Source of the DNA: Actinoplanes utahensis
GTDB taxonomy: Bacteria > Actinomycetota > Actinomycetes > Mycobacteriales > Micromonosporaceae
Reading direction: 5' to 3'
DNA length: 64,000 nucleotides
Assembly (NCBI RefSeq): GCF_016862455.1
Contig: NZ_BOMZ01000081.1
Span: forward strand, 1 to 64,000
Shown here: one piece after another, positions 41,785 through 52,576 of the stretch
Numbering within the stretch: position 1 is the stretch's first letter
How the letters are laid out: each line of letters starts with the position of its first letter
Program-made: the position numbers and the translations under genes
The notes under the pieces: model-generated
Database searches by the model: none
What the model saw: only the letters and a program-made list of their open reading frames with translations
Told to the model about the DNA's origin: nothing

Positions 41785-42867
41785 TCAGGCCGGACGCAGA
41801 AGCCGGAGCGCGCGGTTCACATGACCCTCGGTGACGGCCAGGGCGCGGGCCGCCGTCTCGGTGCTGGCATCGGTGATCAGCGAGACCAGAGCGATCTTCG
41901 CGTCACCGCCGGCGGCGTGCAGCACCTCCCGGCAGCGGGCCGGGTCGGCGCCCGCCGCCTCGGCCAGGATGCGCAGTTGCCGGTCGCGGAGCTTGGCGTT
42001 GCACGCGAGCATGTCGGTCATCAGGTTCGAATAGGTGCGGCCCAGCCGGACCATCGTCGCCGTGGAGAACGCGTTCAGCACCAGCTTCTGCGCGGTTCCC
42101 GCCTTCATCCGGGTGGAACCGGTCACCACCTCGGGGCCGGTGTCCGGGGCGATGTGCACGTCGGCGCAGGCGGCGATCGGGGACGCCCGGTTCGCCGAGA
42201 CCAGGACGGTCCGCGCGCCGCGAGCACGGGCGGTGGTCAGAGCAGCGTGGACGTACGGCGTACGCCCACTGGCCGTGACCCCCAGCACCACATCGCCCGC
42301 CGCGACGTCCGCGGCGGCCGCCGCACCGGCGCTCTCGTCGTCCTCGGCGGCCTCCGACGGGTTCGTCAGCGCATGCGCACCGCCCGCGATGTGCGCGACC
42401 ACCTGCCCCGGCTCCAGCCCGAACGTCGGGATCAACTCGGCCGCGTCCAGAACCGCGATCCGCCCGGACGTGCCCGCGCCGACGTAGTGGACCCGATGGC
42501 CGCCGGAGAGCGCCGCCACGGCCAGTTCCACGGCGGCAGCGATCTCCGGCAGCACATCGGCGACCGCCTCCGGCACAAGGCGGTCCTCGGTGTTGATCAG
42601 GTGCAGCAGGTCGAGGGTGGACATCCGGTCGATCGAGGCGCTGCGCGGGTTCCGCTGCTCGGTCCGCGCCAACGAGCCCTCCCCGGCCGTCCCGTCCACG
42701 TTTCCCCTGTCCGCGGTCGTCCTGTCCGCGGTCCAGCCGTCCACGGTCTTGTCCGCGGTCCAGCCATCTACGGTCTTGTCTGCGGTCCAGGCGTCCACGG
42801 TTCTCCTGTCGGGAAGTCTGCCGTTCACGGGCCGCTCGTTGCGGGGCCGTCCGCCCACGGGGATCAT
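41785..42867 (-). CDS. murQ: N-acetylmuramic acid 6-phosphate etherase with repeat-bearing N-terminus
   Basis: A 360-residue enzyme. From about residue 68 it is a complete MurQ: TEQRNPRSASIDRMSTLDLLHLINTED, the SIS-domain core YVGAGTSGRIAVLDAAELIPTFG, AHIAGG, VTASGRTPYV and TGSTRMKAGTAQK. It cleaves the lactyl ether of MurNAc-6P to GlcNAc-6P and D-lactate. The first 65 residues are extra: three or four copies of (V)DGWTADKT. The ATG overlaps the regulator stop (ATGA), so the long form is likely to be translated. Operon with the RpiR-type regulator. Confidence 0.95.
   Translation of the reverse strand: MIPVGGRPRNERPVNGRLPDRRTVDAWTADKTVDGWTADKTVDGWTADRTTADRGNVDGTAGEGSLARTEQRNPRSASIDRMSTLDLLHLINTEDRLVPEAVADVLPEIAAAVELAVAALSGGHRVHYVGAGTSGRIAVLDAAELIPTFGLEPGQVVAHIAGGAHALTNPSEAAEDDESAGAAAAADVAAGDVVLGVTASGRTPYVHAALTTARARGARTVLVSANRASPIAACADVHIAPDTGPEVVTGSTRMKAGTAQKLVLNAFSTATMVRLGRTYSNLMTDMLACNAKLRDRQLRILAEAAGADPARCREVLHAAGGDAKIALVSLITDASTETAARALAVTEGHVNRALRLLRPA
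42712..42805 (-). repeat. 27-bp tandem repeat in the murQ 5' end
   Basis: Three and a half units of 27 bp (TGTCCGCGGTCCAGCCGTCC + ACGGTCT on the plus strand), in frame, encoding nine-residue DGWTADKTV units ahead of the etherase domain. Confidence 0.85.
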
Positions 42868-43757
42868 CCGCGCCTCCGGTCGGTGCCGATGCGCCGGTCG
42901 CGCACGGCGGTGTAGGTGGCGTCGAGCGCCGTCCGGGTCTCCTGGAACGTGCGCTGGGCGACGCCGACGAAGACACAGTCGATGACGGTGAGCTGCGCCA
43001 GGCGGCTCGCCATCGCACCGGACCGGTACGTCGTCTCCCGGGCGGCGGTGGTCAGCACCAGGTCGGCGACCCCGGCGATCGGCGACTTCGGGAAGTTGGT
43101 CAGCGCGACCGTCCGCGCCCCGTGCCGTTTCGCCTCGGTGAACGCGTCGATGGTGTCGGTGGTGCTGCCGGTGTGCGAGATCGCGAACGCCACATCGCGC
43201 TCATCGAGCAGCGCGGCGCTGGTCAGAGCCACATGAGTGTCACTCCAGGCGAACGCCACCCGCCCGATCCGATGCAGCTTGTGCTGAAAGTCCGCGGCGA
43301 CGAAAGCACTCGCCCCGACCCCGTAGACGTCCACCCGCCGGGCACCCGCGATCACCTCGACCACCTGCTCCAGCACCGTCACGTCGATCTGGGCGGCGGT
43401 CTCCTCGACCGCCCGCGCATCCGCGAAGGCGATCTTCTTCACCACCTGTGCCAGGTCGTCGCCGGGACTGATGTCGCTGCCCACCGGTTCGCCGCCGTCA
43501 TCCCGGCGGCCCGCCTCCGTGGCCAGGGTCAGCCGCAGCTCCGAATAGCCCGCGAAACCCATCGCCCGGCAGAACCGGATCACCGTCGTCTCACTGGAAC
43601 CCGCGCGCTCCGCGAGGTCGGTGATGGTCAGCCGGGCCGCGGTCGCCGACTCGTCGATGATCACCCGCGCCACCCGCTGCTCCGCCGGCGACAGCGACGG
43701 CAAGAGCCCCCGTGCCCGGACGACCGTCTCCGCTGTGCCGCGCATGCCGCCATTCAT
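42864..43757 (-). CDS. RpiR-family regulator, MurR-type
   Basis: A 297-residue regulator: N-terminal HTH_6 (LSPAEQRVARVIIDE, LTITDLAERAGSSETTVIRFCRAMGF) and a C-terminal SIS sugar-phosphate domain (VDVYGVGASAFVAADFQHKL, FAISHTGSTTDTIDAF). SIS regulators next to murQ sense MurNAc-6P or a related phosphosugar. Its stop overlaps murQ. Upstream, TTGACG-17 bp-GAAACT is a possible promoter, and GGAAACTTTTC just before the start is a candidate half-palindromic operator. ATG 43757 is the first in frame. Confidence 0.9.
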   Translation of the reverse strand: MNGGMRGTAETVVRARGLLPSLSPAEQRVARVIIDESATAARLTITDLAERAGSSETTVIRFCRAMGFAGYSELRLTLATEAGRRDDGGEPVGSDISPGDDLAQVVKKIAFADARAVEETAAQIDVTVLEQVVEVIAGARRVDVYGVGASAFVAADFQHKLHRIGRVAFAWSDTHVALTSAALLDERDVAFAISHTGSTTDTIDAFTEAKRHGARTVALTNFPKSPIAGVADLVLTTAARETTYRSGAMASRLAQLTVIDCVFVGVAQRTFQETRTALDATYTAVRDRRIGTDRRRG

Positions 43758-43969
43758 GAAGAAAAGTTTCCGTCCAACGACCTCTCCCGTCAATATTCTC
43801 CATTCATCTGTATCGAGTCGAAGATCGCCACCCGGGAACGCCCGGATGCCCACCGGCAGCCGAGTCGTCGTCCTTGCCCCGTCGGTCGGCGCCCTGCGGC
43901 CGGTTGCATCCCGTCGGTCACGGCAGGCGGCCCGGTGCGGGCTTCGACCCGAGGAGCGGCGGTACGGGG

Positions 43970-44140
43970 ATGACGCTCGGTGCGGCGACCACCGTCCGAG
44001 GCGTGCTCCGCGCCGGACGAGACGCCGCGAATCTGGACCAGGTGACAGCCGCCGGCGCCGCACGCCGAACCGGCCGTACAGCGGCTGATCTTGCCGAGCT
44101 GCTCGCCAGTGCTGTCTCGCGCCGGTCGAGAGGACGGTGA
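43970..44140 (+). CDS. Possible small protein
   Basis: A 56-codon frame starting ATG, reading TLGAATTVRGVLRAGRDAANLDQ and ending in LASAVSRRSRGR. The first 40 codons have actinomycete codon bias and look helical, but the last part is made of a dispersed repeat element. It could be a degraded gene end captured by the repeat. No homology recognised. Confidence 0.25.
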   Translation: MTLGAATTVRGVLRAGRDAANLDQVTAAGAARRTGRTAADLAELLASAVSRRSRGR

Positions 44141-44150
44141 GAACCAGTCG
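44108..44150 (+). repeat. Dispersed GCTGTCTCG hairpin element, copy 1
   Basis: AGTGCTGTCTCG-CGCCGGT-CGAGAGGAC then GGTGAGAACCAGTCGG. Degenerate right arm. See the copies at 44171, 45704, 45767, 46150, 46213, 54987 and 61105. Confidence 0.7.
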
Positions 44151-44170
44151 GCGTTCTCCGGCTGGTCGCC

Positions 44171-44212
44171 AGTGTTGTCTCGTGCGGGTTGAGGCAGCTG
44201 TGGGAGCCGGCC
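44171..44212 (+). repeat. Dispersed hairpin element, copy 2
   Basis: AGTGTTGTCTCGTGCGGGTTGAGGCAGC with a diverged tail GTGGGAGCCGG; 63 bp after copy 1. Confidence 0.6.
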
Positions 44213-44392
44213 CGAAGAGCCCGGTGTCAGGTTCGCCCACCCGTAAACAGGTAAGCCTCCGCAATTCGGCACATCGAGGTCCGTGCGGTGCCCATGGCGG
44301 GTGTAGCGGATCGGGAAGCGGGCGTTCGTGCGGCAACGGTGACCGGATCGGGTGCTGGTGTGGCGGGGGTGGAGGCGGCAGGGTCGGCAGGT

Positions 44393-45373
44393 ATGGGCAC
44401 GGCGCTGGTGGTGGGTGTGGACGCGGGGGCGACGAGCACACGATGTGTGGTCGCGACGGTCGACGGCGCGATAGTGGGCCGGGGCGTGGCCGGCGGCGCG
44501 AACCGTAACAGCAGCGGCGGCGACCTGACCACGACCCTGGCCACGGCGCTCGAACAGGCCCTGGAGGGGACGCCTCGACCGTCCGTGCTGCTGGGCGTGT
44601 TCGGCGCCGCCGGTTCCTCGGGCGCCGGGCGGGCCGCTGTCCGGGTCGCCGCGGCGAACGCCTGGCGGGCCGCCGGGCTGACCGGCGAACCGGTCACGGT
44701 CACCGATCTCGAGGTGGCGTTCGCGGCCGGGACCACCTCGCCCGACGGTGTGCTGCTGCTGTCCGGCACCGGAGCGCTGGCCGCCCGATTCGCGGGCGGC
44801 CGTCTCGAACACCGCTGCGACGGTTACGGCTGGCTGCTCGGGGACGAGGGGTCCGCGGTCTGGATGGGGGTACGGGGACTGCGCGCGGCCCTCGCCGCCC
44901 TCGACGGCCGGGGCGTGCCGACGGTCCTGGTCGACGCCGCCCGCACCCACTTCGGCATCGGTTCCGGTCGCGCGGAGGACACGGCGCAGGCCCTGATCGC
45001 CGCCGCGTTCGCCGTGCCACCCGCGGCTCTCGGCGGGTTCGCTCCCGCGGTGAGCGCCGGCGCGGAAGCCGACGACCCGGTGGCCGTGCGCATCTGTCAC
45101 ACGGCCACCGGTCGCCTCCTGCACACCTTCGACAGCGTCGGGCCGCCACCCGGCGCCGTCGTGGTGCTGGCAGGGTCCGTGCTGCTCACTCCCGGACCGG
45201 TCAGGCGGATGGTTCGCGCCGCCGTGGCCGCCCGCACCGGCGCCGAACCGCGAGTCGGGTCCGACGGCGCGGCCGGGGCCGCGGTTCTGGCTGTCGCGCG
45301 GCTCACCGGCACCCCCGTGGCGCCGGTGACCCACGCCCGCCTGACCGGCAGTCATGGACTGTCCCGTGAGTAG
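44393..45373 (+). CDS. BadF-type amino-sugar kinase (GlcNAc/MurNAc kinase candidate)
   Basis: A 326-residue ASKHA-fold kinase: VVGVDAGATSTRCVV phosphate-1 loop, GANRNSSGGD, the DLEVAFAAGTTSPDGVLLLSGTGALA phosphate-2 region and YGWLLGDEGSAVWMG adenosine motif, as in BadF/BadG N-acetylglucosamine kinases and clostridial MurK. Near murQ/murR it is the best candidate to make MurNAc-6P from imported MurNAc, or GlcNAc-6P. ATG 44393 starts directly before the fold; upstream GTG/ATG readings add a low-complexity Gly/Ala stretch. Divergent from murR. Confidence 0.88.
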   Translation: MGTALVVGVDAGATSTRCVVATVDGAIVGRGVAGGANRNSSGGDLTTTLATALEQALEGTPRPSVLLGVFGAAGSSGAGRAAVRVAAANAWRAAGLTGEPVTVTDLEVAFAAGTTSPDGVLLLSGTGALAARFAGGRLEHRCDGYGWLLGDEGSAVWMGVRGLRAALAALDGRGVPTVLVDAARTHFGIGSGRAEDTAQALIAAAFAVPPAALGGFAPAVSAGAEADDPVAVRICHTATGRLLHTFDSVGPPPGAVVVLAGSVLLTPGPVRRMVRAAVAARTGAEPRVGSDGAAGAAVLAVARLTGTPVAPVTHARLTGSHGLSRE

Positions 45374-45405
45374 CAGCCCTCCGTCGGCCGTCGGCCACCC
45401 GCGGG

Positions 45406-45492
45406 CCACCCACCCGCGGACCACCCGCGAGCCGCGGGCCACCCGCGAGCCGCGGGCCACCCGCGAGCCGCGGACCACCCGCCAGCCGCGGG
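45406..45492. repeat. 18-bp tandem repeat, four full units
   Basis: CCACCCGCGAGCCGCGGG at 45421, 45439, 45457 and 45475 (one or two changes in the last two), with a partial unit before, starting 33 bp past the kinase stop. Confidence 0.9.
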
Positions 45493-45697
45493 CCGTCGGC
45501 CATTCGATGGCTGGCGGACACCCGTCGGCCAGTGCTCATCCGTCGGCCACCGGCCACCCGCTGGCCGCCAGGCATTCGATGGCCGGCGGACGAGTTGCCC
45601 GCTCATCGGCCATCGGCCCCCGTTATTCGGCCTGAGCGACCATGGAAGGACTGTCTGTTGACGGGCGGGCAAGCCCGGCCCCGATTCCTTCCGGCCG

Positions 45698-45823
45698 GTT
45701 CGGAGTGCTGTTTTGGGTCCGGTGAGGCAGCACTGGGGACCAGTCGAAGAACAGCGGCTGGTTCGGAGTGCTGTCTTGGGTCCGGTGAGGCAGCGCCGGG
45801 CACCAGCCGGAGAACAGCGGCTG
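45698..45823 (+). repeat. 63-bp tandem pair of the dispersed hairpin element, copies 3 and 4
   Basis: Units begin GTTCGGAGTGCTGT at 45698 and 45761. Each has GTGCTGT.TTGGGTCCGGTGAGGCAGC and a CACCAGCCGG-like tail, and ends AGAACAGCGGCTG. About 87 % identical to each other. Confidence 0.85.
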
Positions 45824-45870
45824 ATTCTGACTGCTGACCCTGCTGGCCAATTGCTTGCCCGTCGGTTGTC

Positions 45871-45918
45871 GATCTTGTGAGGTTGTGGTGAATCGGTTCG
45901 CCCGAAACTCACAAGATC
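45871..45918. repeat. 11-bp perfect inverted repeat
   Basis: GATCTTGTGAG and CTCACAAGATC, 26 bp apart. It could form a hairpin or bind a dimeric protein. Located just upstream of the polypurine tract. Confidence 0.8.
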
Positions 45919-45922
45919 TCGC

Positions 45923-46034
45923 GCGGAAAGAGCGGAAGGAGCGGAAGGAGCGGAAGGAGGGGAAGGAGGGGAAGGAGCGGAAGGAGCGGAAGAAGGGGTG
46001 GAAGGGGAAGAAGGGGAAGAAGGGGTGGATGGGG
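45923..46034 (+). repeat. Polypurine 9-bp tandem array
   Basis: About 110 bp of nearly pure G/A with period 9 (GAGCGGAAG, then GGAAGGAGG and GGGGAAGAA variants). One strand carries almost no T and few C, a composition able to form triplex DNA. Confidence 0.9.
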
Positions 46035-46149
46035 TGAATCCGTCGCGGGCGGGTTTTCGTCCGCTGGGTTGGATCTGGTGAGCGCGTGGTGGGGCGGACA
46101 GCGCAATCTCCACGATCGACAAGAGGGGCGGCGAATCAGCCAGCAGGGT

Positions 46150-46196
46150 CACAGCTGTCTCGGAGCCGGCGAGACAGCAGTAGCGACCAGCCGGGG
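46150..46196 (+). repeat. Dispersed hairpin element, copy 5 (best palindrome)
   Basis: GCTGTCTCG (46154-46162), loop GAGCCGG, CGAGACAGC (46170-46178): nine perfect pairs, then AGTAGCGACCAGCCGGGG. Confidence 0.9.
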
Positions 46197-46212
46197 AAAC
46201 CCGGCCGGCTCT

Positions 46213-46260
46213 GACGGCTGTCTCCACCGGCGGAAGAGAGCAGTGAGGGCCAGCCGGGGG
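46213..46260 (+). repeat. Dispersed hairpin element, copy 6
   Basis: ACGGCTGTCTCCACCGGCGG-AAGAGAGCAGTGAGGGCCAGCCGGGGG, 59 bp after copy 5 and 45 bp from the end of the namZ-type gene. Confidence 0.8.
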
Positions 46261-46304
46261 AGTTCCGTCGGGGGTGGCGGCTGGTGATCGGGTGAGGGGC
46301 CGTC

Positions 46305-47627
46305 TCATGGGGTGCTCCGGGAGTAGAGCAGGTAGGGCTTGCGCTGCTGATCGAAAGCGGCCAGCTCGCCCGACCAGGAGGCGATGATCTCGTCCGGGGC
46401 GGCGCCGCCGTCGATCATGGTGCGCAGGCGGGTGGATCCGGTGAGGAGGTCGATCCAGTAGCGGGATCCGTCGAGGCGCCAGGTGAACGCCGGCTCCTTG
46501 CGCGCTTCGGTGAGCATGGCGACGGCGGTGCGGAGGGGATCGTACCGATGCGGGTCCTTGATCTTGATCTCGACGCCGGCGCACGATCGGCCGGTGAACT
46601 TGCCGAAGGTCGGGGTGAAGTACGCCTCGCGGAACCGGGTGCCGGGCAGATTCAGCGCGGTCAGCCGGTCGCACCAGCGGTAGTCGGAGGCGGGGCCGCC
46701 GATCAGCTCGAACGGCCTGGTCGTGCCGCGGCCCTCGGACAGCGACGACACGCCTTCGAACATGCCGGTGCCGGGGTAGACGAGCGCGGTGGTGGGGGTC
46801 GGCATGTTCGGGCTGGGCAGCACCCACGGCAGATCGAGATCGGACCCGAGCAGCCGCCCGTGCCACCCCTGGCAGGTGATCACCTCGAGGTCGACCGCGC
46901 GCGCGAGGAACTCACCGTTGTAGAAGCGGGCCAGTTCACCGGCGGTCATGCCGTGCTGCTGCACGATCTTGAGGCGGCCGACGCCGGAGGTGAAGCCGTC
47001 GGTCATCATCGGCCCGCGGGCGCTGCCGCCGACAGGGTTGGGCCGGTCCAGCACCAGGTAGCGCAGCCCGAGCCGCCCGGCCGCGGCCATCGAGTCGTAG
47101 AGCGTGTAGATGTACGTGTAGAAGCGCGCCCCGACGTCCTGGATGTCGAAGACGACGGTGCGGACCCCGGATTCCCGGAACATCCGTTCCCAGGCGGCCT
47201 GGGTGGCCAGGTACGCGTCGTGGACCGGCAGTCCGGTGCGCGCGTCGGTGCCGGTGCCCTCACTGCCGCCGGCCTGCGCCGATCCGCGGAATCCGTGCTC
47301 GGGGCCGAAGATCGCGCCGATGGTCACCCGGTCGGCGTGCATCCGGTCGACCAGGTGCCGGTAGTCGCGGTCCACGCCGGTCGGATTGGAGACGATGCCG
47401 ACCCGCGTGCCCCGCACCGCTGCCCAGCCGTCCGCGGCGAGCCGATCCAAACCGGTCTGGAGGGAGACCGGGACGGAAGCCGGGGAAGGACCCGCGGGAG
47501 CGGCCGGGACTAAGGCCGGGGGAGGACCCGCTGGAGCGGCCGGGACGGAGGCCGGGGGAGGACCCGCTGGGGCGGGCGGGACGAGCAGGCCGCCCGCGCC
47601 CGCCGCGAGCAGGCTCCGGCGGTTCAT
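46305..47627 (-). CDS. Exo-beta-N-acetylmuramidase NamZ-type (DUF1343) protein
   Basis: A 440-residue exported protein. It opens MNRRSLLAAGAGGLLVPP (Tat-like or short Sec signal), followed by a Pro/Ala/Ser linker with a 14-residue repeat, then the DUF1343/GH171 domain: VGIVSNPTGVDRD, IFGPEHGFRG, FDIQDVGARFYTYIYTL, DRPNPVGG, QHGMTAGELARFYN, PSPNMPTPTTALVYPGTGMFEG, LSEGRGTTRPFELIG. Characterised members (Bacillus YbbC) remove MurNAc from non-reducing ends of peptidoglycan. Divergent from the serine hydrolase; in Bacilli the same genes sit beside murQ and murR. Confidence 0.92.
   Translation of the reverse strand: MNRRSLLAAGAGGLLVPPAPAGPPPASVPAAPAGPPPALVPAAPAGPSPASVPVSLQTGLDRLAADGWAAVRGTRVGIVSNPTGVDRDYRHLVDRMHADRVTIGAIFGPEHGFRGSAQAGGSEGTGTDARTGLPVHDAYLATQAAWERMFRESGVRTVVFDIQDVGARFYTYIYTLYDSMAAAGRLGLRYLVLDRPNPVGGSARGPMMTDGFTSGVGRLKIVQQHGMTAGELARFYNGEFLARAVDLEVITCQGWHGRLLGSDLDLPWVLPSPNMPTPTTALVYPGTGMFEGVSSLSEGRGTTRPFELIGGPASDYRWCDRLTALNLPGTRFREAYFTPTFGKFTGRSCAGVEIKIKDPHRYDPLRTAVAMLTEARKEPAFTWRLDGSRYWIDLLTGSTRLRTMIDGGAAPDEIIASWSGELAAFDQQRKPYLLYSRSTP
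47475..47585 (-). repeat. 42-bp tandem repeat in the linker of the namZ-type gene
   Basis: About 2.6 units of 42 bp (GCCGGGGGAGGACCCGCTGG-type), in frame, encoding repeated PAAPAGPPPA(S/L)V segments between the signal and the catalytic domain. Confidence 0.85.
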
Positions 47628-47717
47628 CGGACCCCCCAGGGGTCGATAGCCGGGAAAGCGACGCTACGTGTCCGCATGATGTCGCAAGGTAGCCGGGTGG
47701 CAGGCGATTGGCAATAA

Positions 47718-47745
47718 CCTTCGCCCCCCTTGCGAGTTGCGAAGG
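47718..47745. promoter_or_regulatory. Inverted repeat between divergent cell-wall genes
   Basis: CCTTCGC and GCGAAGG flank a 14-bp loop, in the 159-bp gap between the namZ-type gene and the serine hydrolase/ABC operon. It is placed where one regulator could serve both directions. Confidence 0.5.
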
Positions 47746-47786
47746 AAAGCTCCATCCTCGACGGGTTGGTGTATTGAGAGGCTTAG

Positions 47787-49388
47787 ATGATCAAGCTTCC
47801 GTCCCTGGTGATGTCGGTGCTGGTCGCGGCGACGCCCGCACCGGCCGGGAGCGCGTTCGCCAACGATGTGCTGCGCCCCGGCACCGCCCGCCAGGCCGGT
47901 CTGCTGCCGGACCGGATCGCCGCGCTGCCGGTGATCGCCGCCGCCTATCTGGAGCCCACCCTGGATCATCCCGGGCATCCCGTCTATGCAGGTGCGACGG
48001 TCCTCGCCGCGCACCGCGGCCTGGTGGTGTCCCGGTTCGCCGTGGGGGACGCGGTCCGCTACACCGCCGGACCCGACGGAATTGTCGAGCTTCCGACAGA
48101 TCAGCGGGTCCCGGCGCGCACCGATACCCTGTGGGACCTCGCCTCGATCTCCAAGCTGTTCACCGCGATCCTGGTGCTCCAGCAGGCCGAGGCGGGCCGC
48201 CTCGACCTGGACGCTCCGGTCGCGAGGTACGTCCCGGAGCTCGCCGCCGCCCACGTCACCGCCCGGCAGCTGCTCACTCACACCTCCGGGCTGCCGGCCT
48301 GGCTGCCGCTGCACCTGCGGTACCCGACGGCGGCGCAGCGGCTGGCCGCAGCTCTCGCCACCCCGGCCGGTCCCGCCGGCGCCCACGTCTACTCGGACAT
48401 CGGCCTCATCGTGCTCGGCGTGCTGGTCGAACGGGTCACCGGGAAGCCGCTCGGCCAGGCCGTCCGGGCCGGGGTGACCGGGCCGCTCGGGATGCGCTCG
48501 ACCGGCTACAACCCCGGCCCCGCGCTGCGGGAACGCGCGGCCGCCACCGAACATCAGCCGGCCGTGGGGCGCGGCATGGTCCGGGGCGAGGTGCACGACG
48601 AGAACGCGTGGGCGCTCGGCGGCGTGGCCGGGCACGCGGGGCTCTTCTCCACGGCCGACGACCTGGCGATCCTGTGTCAGGCGCTGCTCAACGGCGGCAC
48701 CCACCGGGGACGGCGGATCCTGAGCGAGGAATCGGTGCGGCAGGCGCTCACCGACCACGGTGACGGGCGCGGGCTCGGGTTCCAGCTCGGCGAGCACACG
48801 TACATGGACGGCATGGCGTCGCCGATCACCTTCGGGCACACCGGATTCACCGGCACGTCGGTGGTGATCGACCCGATCGACCGGTCGTTCCTGATCGTTC
48901 TCAGCAACCGCGTCCACCCGGACCGGACCTGGGCGAGAATCGACGTCGCACGGCGCGCGCTGGCCCGTACCCTCGCGCAAGCCCACCCCATCCCCGGACC
49001 AGCCGCGACCGGAACGCCCTGGCGGGCCGACCGGCGCGACGGCGCCGTCATGACCCTCACCGCCGGCCCGGCGCACGGTTCCTTCCAGATCTGGTACGAC
49101 ACCGAGCCGCGCAACGACACCGTCACCGTCGAGTCCTCCGCCGACGGGATCACCTGGGCGCCCCTGCCGATGACCCTGCGGTCCGGCGCGGACGTGGCCA
49201 CCAGCGACGGCACGCTCACCGGTTTCGGCGGGCGGCGCTGGTGGCGGGTGCACACCGACGCGTCGCGGCTGCGTTTCACCTACCGCACCGACGCCGCGTC
49301 GCAGGGCCGTGGCGTTCTCGTCGCCGGGATCCGGCAGCCGTACACCGCGGACGGCTGGACCAGCTCACAGGCAGGAGCCGAACGATGA
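47787..49388 (+). CDS. Exported serine hydrolase, AmiE/beta-lactamase fold, with C-terminal beta domain
   Basis: A 533-residue protein with a signal peptide (residues 1-25, ending GSAFA). Residues 30-390 are a class-C beta-lactamase/AmiE-type hydrolase: SxxK in LASISKLF, Tyr motif YSDIGLIVLG, and the HTG-type motif FGHTGFTGT. Residues 410-530 form an extra beta-rich domain (FQIWYDTEPRND, WAPLPMTLRSG) that may bind glycan. In Bacillus the equivalent AmiE removes the stem peptide from MurNAc before uptake. First gene of a four-gene operon; ATG with GAGAGG upstream, and ATGA overlap with the binding-protein gene. Confidence 0.88.
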   Translation: MIKLPSLVMSVLVAATPAPAGSAFANDVLRPGTARQAGLLPDRIAALPVIAAAYLEPTLDHPGHPVYAGATVLAAHRGLVVSRFAVGDAVRYTAGPDGIVELPTDQRVPARTDTLWDLASISKLFTAILVLQQAEAGRLDLDAPVARYVPELAAAHVTARQLLTHTSGLPAWLPLHLRYPTAAQRLAAALATPAGPAGAHVYSDIGLIVLGVLVERVTGKPLGQAVRAGVTGPLGMRSTGYNPGPALRERAAATEHQPAVGRGMVRGEVHDENAWALGGVAGHAGLFSTADDLAILCQALLNGGTHRGRRILSEESVRQALTDHGDGRGLGFQLGEHTYMDGMASPITFGHTGFTGTSVVIDPIDRSFLIVLSNRVHPDRTWARIDVARRALARTLAQAHPIPGPAATGTPWRADRRDGAVMTLTAGPAHGSFQIWYDTEPRNDTVTVESSADGITWAPLPMTLRSGADVATSDGTLTGFGGRRWWRVHTDASRLRFTYRTDAASQGRGVLVAGIRQPYTADGWTSSQAGAER

Positions 49389-50785
49389 CATCAGCGATCA
49401 GCAGGCGCCGGCTCCTCCACGGCACGGCCGGTGCCGCCGTGGCGGGCACGCTCGGCGGCTGCGCCATGGGCGGCGAGGCGGACGGCGACACGGCGAAGGG
49501 CGTCGCCAGCGCGGCCAACCCGCTCGGCGTGAAGGAGGACGCACCCCTCGAAGTGGTGATCTTCAACGGCGGGTTCGGGGAGGAGTACGCCAAGGCGCAC
49601 GAGGCCATGTACCGCGAGCGGTACCCGAAGTCGCAGATCAAGCACGCGGCGACCCAGCAGATCGCCGAGACGCTGCAACCCAGGTTCGTCGGCGGCGACC
49701 CGCCGGACGTGGTCAACAACTCCGGGGCCAGCCAGATGGACTTCAACGGCCTCGTCTCCCAGAACGCCCTGACCGACCTGGGCGAGCTCCTCGACGCGCC
49801 GAGCCTCGACGACCCGTCGGTGAAGGTGCGCGACACCCTCCTGCCGGGCACCGTGGACGTCGGCTCGTACGACGGGAGGTTCCTGTCGCTCAACTATGCG
49901 TACTCGGCGTACGGCATCTGGTACTCGCAGACGCTCTTCGCGGCGAAGGGCTGGGAGTATCCGAGGACCTGGGACGAGATGATCGCCCTCTGCAAGACGA
50001 TCAAGGCGGCCGGCATCGCGCCGTGGACCTACCCCGGCAGACACTCCCGGTACATGAGCTGGCCGATCGTCGCCGCCGCCGGCAAACTCGGCGGCCTCGA
50101 CGTGATCAAGGCGCTCGACAACCTGGAGCCGAACGCGTGGCGGCACGAGGCGGTGCGGGCCGCCGCCGAGGCCTACTACCAGCTCGCCGTCGACGGATAC
50201 CTCCAGCCGGGCGCCGAGGGCATGGACCACATCCAGGCGCAGACCGCATGGTGCCGGGGCCAGGCCGCGTTCCTCTCCTGCGGCTCCTGGCTGGAGAGCG
50301 AACAGAAAGCGGTCACCCCGCCGGACTTCCGGATGGCGATCGCGCCCACCCCCAGCCTGACCAGCGCCGACAAGATGCCGTACGAGGCGTTTCGGGGCGC
50401 CGGCAGCGAACCGTTCATCGTCCCGGCCAAGGCGAAGAACGTCCGCGGCGGTCTCGAATACCTGCGGGTCATGCTGTCCAGGAAGGGCGCCTCCGACTTC
50501 ACCCGCAAGGTCAGCAGCCTGACCAGCGTGCGCGGCGCCGGCGACGGCATCACCCTCGGACCCGGCCTCACCTCGGTCACCGCGCTCATCGAGGCGTCCA
50601 ACGGGGGAGCGTTCACCTGGATGTACAACTCGTACTACCGCAAACTCGAACGGGAACGCATCGACGGGGCCTGCGCCGAACTGTTCACCAGACGGATCAA
50701 CGCCGCCCAGTGGTGCGACAGGGTGCAGAAGTCCGCCGACGAGTTCGCCGCCGACCCCGCGATCAAGAAGTACAAGCGGGCCTGA
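49385..50785 (+). CDS. ABC sugar-binding lipoprotein, NgcE-like
   Basis: A 466-residue solute-binding lipoprotein. It opens MTSAISRRRLLHGTAGAAVA with a twin Arg and lipobox LGGCAM. Family 1 binding-protein features: LEVVIFNGGFGEEYAKAHEAMY, LQPRFVGGDPPDVVNNSGA, YSAYGIWYSQTLFAAKGWEYPRTWDEMI, and TYPGRHSRYMSWP. This closely follows the N-acetylglucosamine/chitobiose protein NgcE of streptomycetes. Next to murQ and namZ-type genes it may take MurNAc, GlcNAc or a MurNAc-containing sugar. Overlaps the hydrolase stop by 4 bp. Confidence 0.92.
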   Translation: MTSAISRRRLLHGTAGAAVAGTLGGCAMGGEADGDTAKGVASAANPLGVKEDAPLEVVIFNGGFGEEYAKAHEAMYRERYPKSQIKHAATQQIAETLQPRFVGGDPPDVVNNSGASQMDFNGLVSQNALTDLGELLDAPSLDDPSVKVRDTLLPGTVDVGSYDGRFLSLNYAYSAYGIWYSQTLFAAKGWEYPRTWDEMIALCKTIKAAGIAPWTYPGRHSRYMSWPIVAAAGKLGGLDVIKALDNLEPNAWRHEAVRAAAEAYYQLAVDGYLQPGAEGMDHIQAQTAWCRGQAAFLSCGSWLESEQKAVTPPDFRMAIAPTPSLTSADKMPYEAFRGAGSEPFIVPAKAKNVRGGLEYLRVMLSRKGASDFTRKVSSLTSVRGAGDGITLGPGLTSVTALIEASNGGAFTWMYNSYYRKLERERIDGACAELFTRRINAAQWCDRVQKSADEFAADPAIKKYKRA

Positions 50786-50786
50786 C

Positions 50787-51689
50787 GTGCGCCGACTGTT
50801 CATCGCCACGTTCCTGGTGCCGCCGCTGCTGCTCTACGGGATCTTCGTCGTCTCCCCGTACACCCAAGCCTTCCAGATCTCCACCACGAACTGGACCGGC
50901 CTGTCGCCGACGTTCGAATTCGTCGGCCTCGCCAATTTCCAGCGGCTGCTCGACGACGGCTACCTGTGGAACGCGCTGCGCCACAACGGCCTGCTCCTGC
51001 TGTTCCTGCCGCTGGTCACGATCCTGCTCGGCCTGTTCTTCGCCTCGATGATCAGCGTCGGCGGGCGCGCCGACCGGGTGGGCGTGCACGGCGTCCGCGG
51101 CGCCGGCTTCTACCGGGTCGTCTACTTCTTTCCGCAGGTGCTCTCGGTGGCGATCATCGGGGTGCTGTGGAAGGAGATGTACGCGCCGCACACCGGCATG
51201 ATCAACGGCCTGCTCCGGGCTGTGGGGCTGGACCGGCTCGCGGTCGCCTGGCTCGGCGACCCACGGTTCTCGTTCTGGTGCGTGCTGGCCGTTCTCATCT
51301 GGATGAACGTCGGCTTCTACGTCGTGCTGTTCAGCGCCGCCATGCAATCGATACCCCGCGACCTGTACGAGGCGGCGCTGCTCGACGGCGCCGGCCGGCT
51401 CGTCACCCTGGTCCGGGTCACCGTGCCGCTGGTCTGGGACACCATCCAGGTCGCGTGGGTCTACCTGGCCATCATCGCGATCGACGGTTTCGCCGTCGTG
51501 CAGATCATCACCGACGGCGGTCCGAGCGCCTCGTCGGACGTGGTCGGTCTGCGCCTCTACAAGACCGCCTTCGGCGACGGCCAGTTCGGGTACGCCTCCG
51601 CGATCGGTGTCGCCATGTTCTTCCTGACCCTCACCGTCGCCGTCATGTTCCTGCGGGTCACCCGCCGCGACCGGGTGGAGCTGCAATGA
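50787..51689 (+). CDS. ABC sugar transporter permease, NgcF-like
   Basis: A 300-residue permease with six helices: starts RRLFIATFLVPPLLLYGIFVVSPYTQAFQIS and holds the EAA loop YEAALLDGAGRLVTLVRVTVPLVWDTIQ that contacts the ATPase. MalF/NgcF type. The GTG follows the binding-protein stop after one base, and its own stop overlaps the next ATG. No ATPase gene is in the operon, so a shared MsiK-type ATPase is probably used. Confidence 0.93.
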   Translation: MRRLFIATFLVPPLLLYGIFVVSPYTQAFQISTTNWTGLSPTFEFVGLANFQRLLDDGYLWNALRHNGLLLLFLPLVTILLGLFFASMISVGGRADRVGVHGVRGAGFYRVVYFFPQVLSVAIIGVLWKEMYAPHTGMINGLLRAVGLDRLAVAWLGDPRFSFWCVLAVLIWMNVGFYVVLFSAAMQSIPRDLYEAALLDGAGRLVTLVRVTVPLVWDTIQVAWVYLAIIAIDGFAVVQIITDGGPSASSDVVGLRLYKTAFGDGQFGYASAIGVAMFFLTLTVAVMFLRVTRRDRVELQ

Positions 51690-52576
51690 CCGCCGTATTG
51701 ACCGACCGCGTGACGACACCGGTGCCCGCGCCGGCAGTCCCGCCGCGCCGGACCGTTCCGATCGTGTCGCATGCGTTCCTGGCCGGGTGGGCGCTGCTCA
51801 CCACGCTGCCGCTGGTCTGGGCGGTGCTGAGCTCGTTCAAGAGCGACGAGGAGATCCTCACCGACCCGTGGAGCCTGCCCGCCCGGATCCGCTGGGAGAA
51901 CTGGGGCCGCGCCTGGAACGAGGCGCACATCGGCCGGTACCTCCTCAACAGCGCGGTCGTCGTCACCGGCGCCCTCACGCTGACCATGCTGTTCGGGGCG
52001 ATGGCCGCGTACGTGCTGGCCCGCTACCGGTTCCGCGGCCACCGGATCGTCTACTACGCGTTCACCGGCGGCATGATGTTCCCGGTCTTCCTGGCCCTGG
52101 TGCCGCTGTTCTTCGTGGTCCGCAACCTGGGGCTGCTCGGCACCCTGCCCGGCCTGACCCTGGTCTACGCCGCGTACTCGCTGCCGTTCACGGTGTTCTT
52201 CCTGACCGCGTTCTTCCGCACCCTGCCGACGTCGGTCGCCGAAGCCGCCATGGTCGACGGATGCGGCCACTTCGGCCTCTTCTTCCGGATCATGCTGCCG
52301 ATGGCCAGGCCCGGCCTGATCAGCGTCGGCATCTTCAACTTCCTGTTCCAATGGAATCAGTACGTGCTGCCGATCGTCCTCATGCAGGGCGAAGGCGCCG
52401 AACGCAAGTGGGTGCTGGCGCAGGGGCTGACGGCGCTCGCGGTCAACGAGGGATATCGCGGCGACTTCAGCGGCCTGTTCGCCGGCATGACCATCGCGAT
52501 GATCCCGGTCGTCGCCGGCTACCTGATCTTCCACCGGCAGGTCCAGACCGGCCTGTCCGCCGGACAGCTCCGCTGA
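51686..52576 (+). CDS. ABC sugar transporter permease, NgcG-like
   Basis: A 296-residue MalG-type permease: six helices, EAA loop AEAAMVDGCGHFGLFFRIMLPMARPG, and the ending QVQTGLSAGQLR typical of the family. The ATG overlaps the previous stop (ATGA). Forms the channel with the NgcF-like subunit. Last gene of the operon; the following gene converges 17 bp away. Confidence 0.93.
   Translation: MTAVLTDRVTTPVPAPAVPPRRTVPIVSHAFLAGWALLTTLPLVWAVLSSFKSDEEILTDPWSLPARIRWENWGRAWNEAHIGRYLLNSAVVVTGALTLTMLFGAMAAYVLARYRFRGHRIVYYAFTGGMMFPVFLALVPLFFVVRNLGLLGTLPGLTLVYAAYSLPFTVFFLTAFFRTLPTSVAEAAMVDGCGHFGLFFRIMLPMARPGLISVGIFNFLFQWNQYVLPIVLMQGEGAERKWVLAQGLTALAVNEGYRGDFSGLFAGMTIAMIPVVAGYLIFHRQVQTGLSAGQLR

Follow-up and report, generated by a model that had tools for sequence, protein, structure and literature searches.

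The window analysed here comprises 64,000 nucleotides of Actinoplanes utahensis DNA (positions 1 to 64,000 of contig NZ_BOMZ01000081.1, assembly GCF_016862455.1; the host genome is 9.4 Mb in 161 contigs), and its positions 41785-52576 carry an eight-gene set for the salvage of N-acetylmuramic acid (MurNAc) that probably works without a phosphotransferase system (PTS), with import by an NgcE-type ATP-binding cassette (ABC) transporter followed by phosphorylation by a MurK-like kinase. All genes sit where the preliminary description of the window had placed them. On the minus strand, murQ (41785-42867) encodes a MurNAc-6-phosphate etherase that scores 317.8 bits with TIGR00274 (cut-off 302), and it is joined by the ATGA overlap described earlier to the adjacent murR (42864-43760, start approximate), whose product carries the PF01418 (HTH_6) and PF01380 (SIS) domains of an RpiR/SIS regulator. 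The BadF-family sugar kinase of MurK-like type, likewise recognized before, lies on the plus strand at about 44393-45373 (PF01869, 81.6 bits), with a start that is set by comparison with relatives and is probably downstream of the start of the open reading frame (ORF). The namZ gene (46305-47627, minus strand), first listed as a DUF1343/NamZ-type glycosidase, belongs to the exo-beta-N-acetylmuramidase family and its product matches both NamZ domains (PF07075, NamZ_N, 226 bits; PF20732, NamZ_C, 170 bits). An amiE-like serine hydrolase gene follows on the plus strand at 47787-49388 (PF00144, 207 bits), where the earlier AmiE-like label holds at the level of the PF00144 family and of gene context. 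The last three genes, also on the plus strand, encode a solute-binding lipoprotein of the NgcE family, murQ-associated clade (49385-50785), and permeases in the NgcF (50787-51689) and NgcG (51686-52576) positions, both with a PF00528 domain. The binding protein, which had been called NgcEFG-like together with the two permeases and the missing ATPase, scores 602 bits with TIGR03851 (chitin_NgcE) against a cut-off of 399.65, and is therefore NgcE by the curated rules and not merely NgcE-like.

MurP is described as an EII-BC protein (PMC5061867). The glucose-family EIIB domain (PF00367) had no match in any of 67 genomes of the genus, that of A. utahensis among them, and the same search was positive for E. 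coli and B. subtilis as controls. The sole PTS_EIIC protein of the genome is of the mannitol type (TIGR00851, 473.5 bits, cut-off 468.4), so no murP was found genome-wide and the PTS-free character first ascribed to the locus stands. The genome encodes three MalK-type ATPases, one with its permeases next to it and two (contigs C35 and C71) without nearby permeases. The C35 protein is over the UgpC cut-off (446.2 vs 432) and the C71 protein is under it (397.4), and either of them could serve as the shared ATPase of the importer.

An LGGC resembling a lipobox is present in the binding protein, whose nearest relatives are proteins of Actinoplanes and Paractinoplanes species. A maximum-likelihood tree of 61 NgcE proteins, which does not represent all of the 135 genomes described below, contains one clade (support 100/99) of 19 murQ-linked proteins and 12 of the Micromonospora type that are encoded first in a tandem of ngcEFG operons, and two further NgcE paralogues of the own genome fall outside it. 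The murQ-linked label needs three changes on this tree, at least two of them forced by starred branches, and murQ linkage thus does not have one clean origin. In the alignment of 59 proteins, residue 222 of the window protein is arginine in 31 of 31 members of the clade, and the 28 other NgcE have Glu (11), Ala (seven), Tyr (five), Arg (two, both of a sister branch) or another residue (three); eight Streptomyces proteins have Tyr (seven) or Thr (one). The position aligns beside Tyr155 of maltose-binding protein, in a segment that contacts the sugar there. By phmmer, MAFFT and hhalign alike it is also aligned with Trp213 of NagB1, which is reported to interact with the first GlcNAc (N-acetylglucosamine) of the ligand (PMC8233162). 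The change from a neutral or acidic residue to arginine would be what a carboxylate-bearing sugar calls for. The AlphaFold2 model of the binding protein has a mean predicted local distance difference test (pLDDT) value of 91.2, and its closest solved folds are binders of lacto-N-biose-type sugars, raffinose, xylobiose and chitin oligomers. The NgcE of Streptomyces coelicolor is reported to bind MurNAc at 25 µM (PMC6167110). One part of the own genome, on contig C100 (L168:764-8276), contains a second NgcEFG operon behind an RpiR-type regulator, with a probable extra sugar binding protein and a second permease pair.

The best solved relative of the window kinase (model pLDDT 92.2), by sequence and by fold, is MurK of Clostridium acetobutylicum (8zo3), a kinase of MurNAc and GlcNAc, with which it shares the BadF type and an NxNSS motif in the sugar loop, although the identity is 24% over the fold match and the substrate is a predicted one. 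In MurK of T. forsythia, T94 and the segment S133-P134-L135 are described as making room for the lactyl group (PMC10465942); the window kinase has a Thr before the catalytic Asp and differs in having Asp-Gly-Tyr near the lactyl cavity, a correspondence mapped by eye and not decisive. The lean of a kinase was taken as its score to MurK minus its score to the S. tokodaii hexokinase, and was compared between 15 murQ-linked kinases (the window and 14 loci) and 38 non-linked ones, that is, those beside ngcEFG loci without a linked murQ. There was no overlap between the two groups, the lowest linked value being -9.5 and the highest non-linked value -11.4, and the lean was positive in 11/15 of the former and 0/38 of the latter. 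Three divergent kinases of the Hamadaea type (+5.6, -0.8 and -7.3) were each above every non-linked kinase.

Conservation was read from the best 80 of 549 loci of relatives found by scanning genome contigs with an NgcE alignment, a set that partly overlaps with the other locus sets read and in which some flanks are short, so that a missing murQ in a short locus is no evidence of absence. The murQ gene is present within the flanks of 18 loci, in three layouts. Nine have the full order of the window and a tenth (L094) lacks nothing but the kinase; five, from Dactylosporangium and Nucisporomicrobium, have murQ-murR, the kinase and ngcEFG without namZ and amiE in the flanks read; and three, from Hamadaea, Rhizocola and Catelliglobosispora, have ngcEFG-murR-murQ in a single direction. 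The ABC genes are accordingly conserved beside murQ in relatives, as the preliminary description would have them. Among 300 genomes of the family, NgcE of the murQ type is present in 135, and murQ was found in all of these (135/135) and in 84 of the remaining 165; two of the 135 (G035 and G041) are of the sister branch. In the genus of the window 23 of 67 genomes have murQ-type NgcE, all with murQ and with all pairs within 9 kb, while among 24 control genomes of the genus with a more distant best NgcE (E 1e-156 to 1e-140) murQ was found in two. For Micromonospora (g4, assigned to this genus through matching contigs) the figures are 70/70 genomes with NgcE of the clade and 20/36 without. The murQ type was called at E-values below 1e-195 for g4, by reading off the matches listed for g1, and at E-values below 1e-170 for all remaining genera; the cut was set after a gap in the values had been seen, and the Fisher tests of co-occurrence ignore shared ancestry.

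The two hydrolases of the locus are both predicted to be exported. The namZ product has a PEHG motif and a twin-arginine-like leader (read by eye), and the serine hydrolase has an export leader, also read by eye, and the motifs SISK (SxxK), YSD and HTG. The best NCBIfam match of the latter is PBP4B, with 155 bits well under the cut-off of 385; PBP4B (yfeW) is described as belonging to the murQ operon of E. coli, and amiE to the cluster of B. subtilis (PMC5061867). Across the class, murQ was detected in 144/394 genomes at E up to 1e-60, and several of 20 murQ neighbourhoods taken from it have homologues of the amiE-like gene close by. Three of these neighbourhoods (L186, L187 and L190) have namZ-amiE-murR-murQ, and a glycoside hydrolase family 3 (GH3) gene was looked for and found in L186 and L190. 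Among the relatives carrying both namZ and amiE, 6/10 have about 1.8 kb between the two, enough for an extra gene, and in both loci examined (L088 and L146) this gap holds a GH3, NagZ-like, gene by Pfam that shares one base with namZ and, in L088, encodes a protein with an export leader (by eye). The GH3 gene beside namZ means that such relatives hold the Bacillus set murQ-murR-amiE-nagZ-namZ with murP replaced. The leader region of the window namZ holds a 36-bp tandem repeat at 47468-47592.

Two putative regulatory elements were located. One, of the TCATGAAGAAAAGTTTCC type, is at the start of murR (43754-43770, no strand assigned), is a possible regulator site and is seen again upstream of murR in numerous relatives, the window site itself being a training site. 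The other is a promoter-region element on the plus strand between namZ and amiE (47708-47755), TTGGCAATAACCTTCG...GCGAAGGAAAGC, with the core TTATTGCCA in 17/18 upstream regions; the top-scoring window site of this type, at 47739, is itself a training site. A shared MurR operator was rejected as a candidate, as the motif trained upstream of murR took in the start codon and transferred poorly to the amiE and ngcE promoters (window p about 0.69). Compared with the random pieces from these loci that served as a second control, the promoters are probably richer in A+T, and the shared operator is therefore left as suggestive, as is the putative regulatory link between murR and amiE or ngcE in the relatives of the window. 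Micromonospora was also rejected as a proof of co-regulation, owing to differing promoter repeats, and was kept for co-occurrence alone. Micromonospora loci such as L114:10004-20963 have two tandem ngcEFG operons, which belong to different clades and flank a single kinase and a single RpiR regulator, and a conserved inverted repeat is located upstream of the first operon.

Taken together, an ABC importer and a kinase most likely act on MurNAc in place of MurP, a reading that is well supported by comparison but not proven. The preliminary description had proposed this replacement from the genes alone; the missing murP and the conserved ABC genes agree with it, and the kinase type, the change in the pocket and the co-occurrence with murQ add to its support, and what has to be modified is the view of the locus as complete-looking. 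It does hold murQ, murR, the kinase, namZ, the amiE-like gene and ngcEFG, but the nagZ-type gene of the relatives is missing and the ATPase should be encoded elsewhere. The secreted hydrolase in the AmiE position and the secreted NamZ would free MurNAc from peptidoglycan fragments, the NgcE-family lipoprotein would bind it, and the two permeases would import it with the help of a shared MsiK/MalK-type ATPase encoded elsewhere. In the cytosol the BadF-type kinase would phosphorylate MurNAc, MurQ would turn MurNAc-6-phosphate into GlcNAc-6-phosphate and lactate, and MurR might control the pathway. What the importer and the kinase act on, which ATPase drives uptake, what the hydrolases do and how the genes are regulated are inferences in this scheme. 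It is likely that the same system also takes up GlcNAc. More tentatively, and with somewhat less than even confidence, the murQ-associated NgcE clade of Micromonosporaceae might be a dedicated MurNAc receptor of the ABC type derived from a GlcNAc/chitobiose receptor, in which Arg222 would hold the lactyl carboxylate and which in many cases would be partnered with a MurK-like kinase.

A number of observations weigh against the import of MurNAc by this system. The locus genes (41785-52576) include no ATPase gene and the window no GH3 (nagZ-type) gene. The placement of Arg222 in the pocket is by alignment, not by coordinates, and the S. coelicolor NgcE mentioned above is reported to bind GlcNAc at 1.9 µM, 13-fold better than MurNAc (PMC6167110). 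For four of the 15 murQ-linked kinases the hexokinase gives a better score than MurK, no kinase match was found in one of the 18 murQ-linked loci (L094), and none between murR and namZ in L061 and L072. In Micromonospora the ngcEFG genes of the clade do not adjoin murQ in the loci read, and in 10/10 genomes searched (eight with NgcE of the clade, two without) the best kinase match is just 36-39% identical; in those eight it belongs to the ngcEFG locus, and the kinases of such loci had fallen among the non-linked ones in the score comparison. The murR promoter (four loci) and the clade ngcE promoter of Micromonospora differ in their repeats as judged by eye, an argument against the murQ-linked MurR controlling ngcEFG there, and among the relatives of the window the amiE-side motif is found upstream of murR at p<=0.05 in just 14/26 loci. 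Finally, ngcEFG, a BadF kinase and an RpiR regulator are also paired in loci without murQ, and the pairing alone is thus not MurNAc-specific.

The last point also agrees with another explanation, which we regard as unlikely, namely that the ABC system and the kinase serve GlcNAc or chitobiose released alongside MurNAc, with murQ adjacent as the pathways converge on GlcNAc-6-phosphate and with MurNAc entering otherwise. The TIGR03851 equivalog score of the binding protein would fit such a role, as would the good binding of GlcNAc and (GlcNAc)2 reported for the NgcE of S. coelicolor and S. olivaceoviridis (PMC6167110). The murQ-type NgcE, however, was never found without murQ among the 300 family genomes, while more distant NgcE types are, and the two other NgcE paralogues of the own genome could serve GlcNAc. 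As for the kinase, its only NCBIfam match is NagK_SO3507, a weak one (65.9 bits, cut-off 370), but the linked kinases are shifted towards MurK, and the two compared with this family match it less, with 65.9 and 76 bits against 105 bits for one non-linked kinase. An arginine at the pocket position is, moreover, limited to the murQ-associated clade and its sister among the 59 aligned proteins. A still less probable explanation is that the importer takes a disaccharide or larger piece (GlcNAc-MurNAc, MurNAc-GlcNAc or a muropeptide) that is cut in the cytosol, as might be suggested by the di- and trisaccharides bound by the closest fold matches (9h0n-p of the lacto-N-biose family, and NagB2), by the Dactylosporangium loci without namZ and amiE within the flanks read and by a peptide-type binding protein inside one murQ cluster (L178), but the export leaders, by eye, of NamZ, the amiE-like product and the GH3 protein of L088 imply that breakdown to monosaccharides should occur outside the cell, and no cytosolic muramidase was recognized among the eight locus genes.

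The murQ pathway itself is known, and MurNAc salvage with ABC import varies it rather than forming a new kind of system. The B. subtilis cluster is given as murQ-murR-murP-amiE-nagZ-ybbC(namZ) (PMC5061867), and the window has in common with it murQ, murR, an amiE-family gene and namZ, with GH3 by namZ in the two relatives examined, but it has no nagZ-type gene, and in place of murP, which was found neither in the locus nor in the genome, there are the BadF kinase, the NgcE-type binding protein and the two permeases. Like the NgcEFG system described from Streptomyces (PMC6167110), the locus has an NgcE of curated equivalog score and two MalFG-type permeases in an operon without an ATPase, but the window NgcE is about 33-50% identical to the Streptomyces proteins examined, is linked to murQ, namZ and amiE, and has Arg222 and not Tyr or Thr. 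In the account of YejBEF-YepA of Agrobacterium tumefaciens (PMC9790009) peptidoglycan recycling is served by an ABC transporter that stands in for the usual permease; that system, likened here by its description alone, is presented as one for muropeptides in an alphaproteobacterium without AmpG. UspABC of Mycobacterium tuberculosis has a sugar-type ABC binding protein with a melting point raised by muramic acid, and has been proposed for cell-wall recycling (PMC4929945), a likeness resting on the description in that paper and not on sequence family or gene neighbours. S. coelicolor is reported to recycle MurNAc via MurQ yet to have no MurP orthologue (PMC5061867), and as late as 2026 a preprint describes the MurNAc importer of mycobacteria as unknown (PMC13041923). 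If the reading of the clade as a dedicated MurNAc receptor is true, the system would be a MurNAc-specific ABC importer and the PTS-free route missing so far for murQ-bearing actinomycetes without MurP. The locus offers a concrete candidate importer, kinase and pocket residue for MurNAc uptake. The accessible literature on NgcE and MurNAc, with most subscription journals outside the search, proposed no such importer, the nearest title being that on the Agrobacterium ABC muropeptide importer.

Some further features of the region and of related loci may be mentioned. The N terminus of MurQ is extended by about 65 residues with repeats, and a 27-bp tandem repeat is located at 42719-42801. Around the kinase gene there are dispersed GC-rich inverted-repeat units at window positions 44173, 45706, 45769 and 46154 (loose pattern); similar units number three in 117 kb of other loci of the own genome, two in 199 kb of related loci and none in shuffled sequence. 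Strict patterns gave no match within the window and one genome-wide, and the units were dropped as an element. In two kinase-RpiR-ngcEFG loci with no linked murQ, a PRK02947 SIS protein is encoded between the regulator and the binding protein (L114:16869-17615 and L169:8724-9431), and it may take the place of murQ there. A different arrangement is present in another family of the class, where L178:7297-19844 has genes for a family-5 (peptide-type) binding protein and a permease (Pfam) between GH3 and namZ-murQ-amiE, together with three more ORFs of ABC-like size in the same stretch. This is possibly a second, different ABC solution for the uptake of muropeptides or MurNAc, indicating that other actinomycetes may have solved MurNAc import differently.

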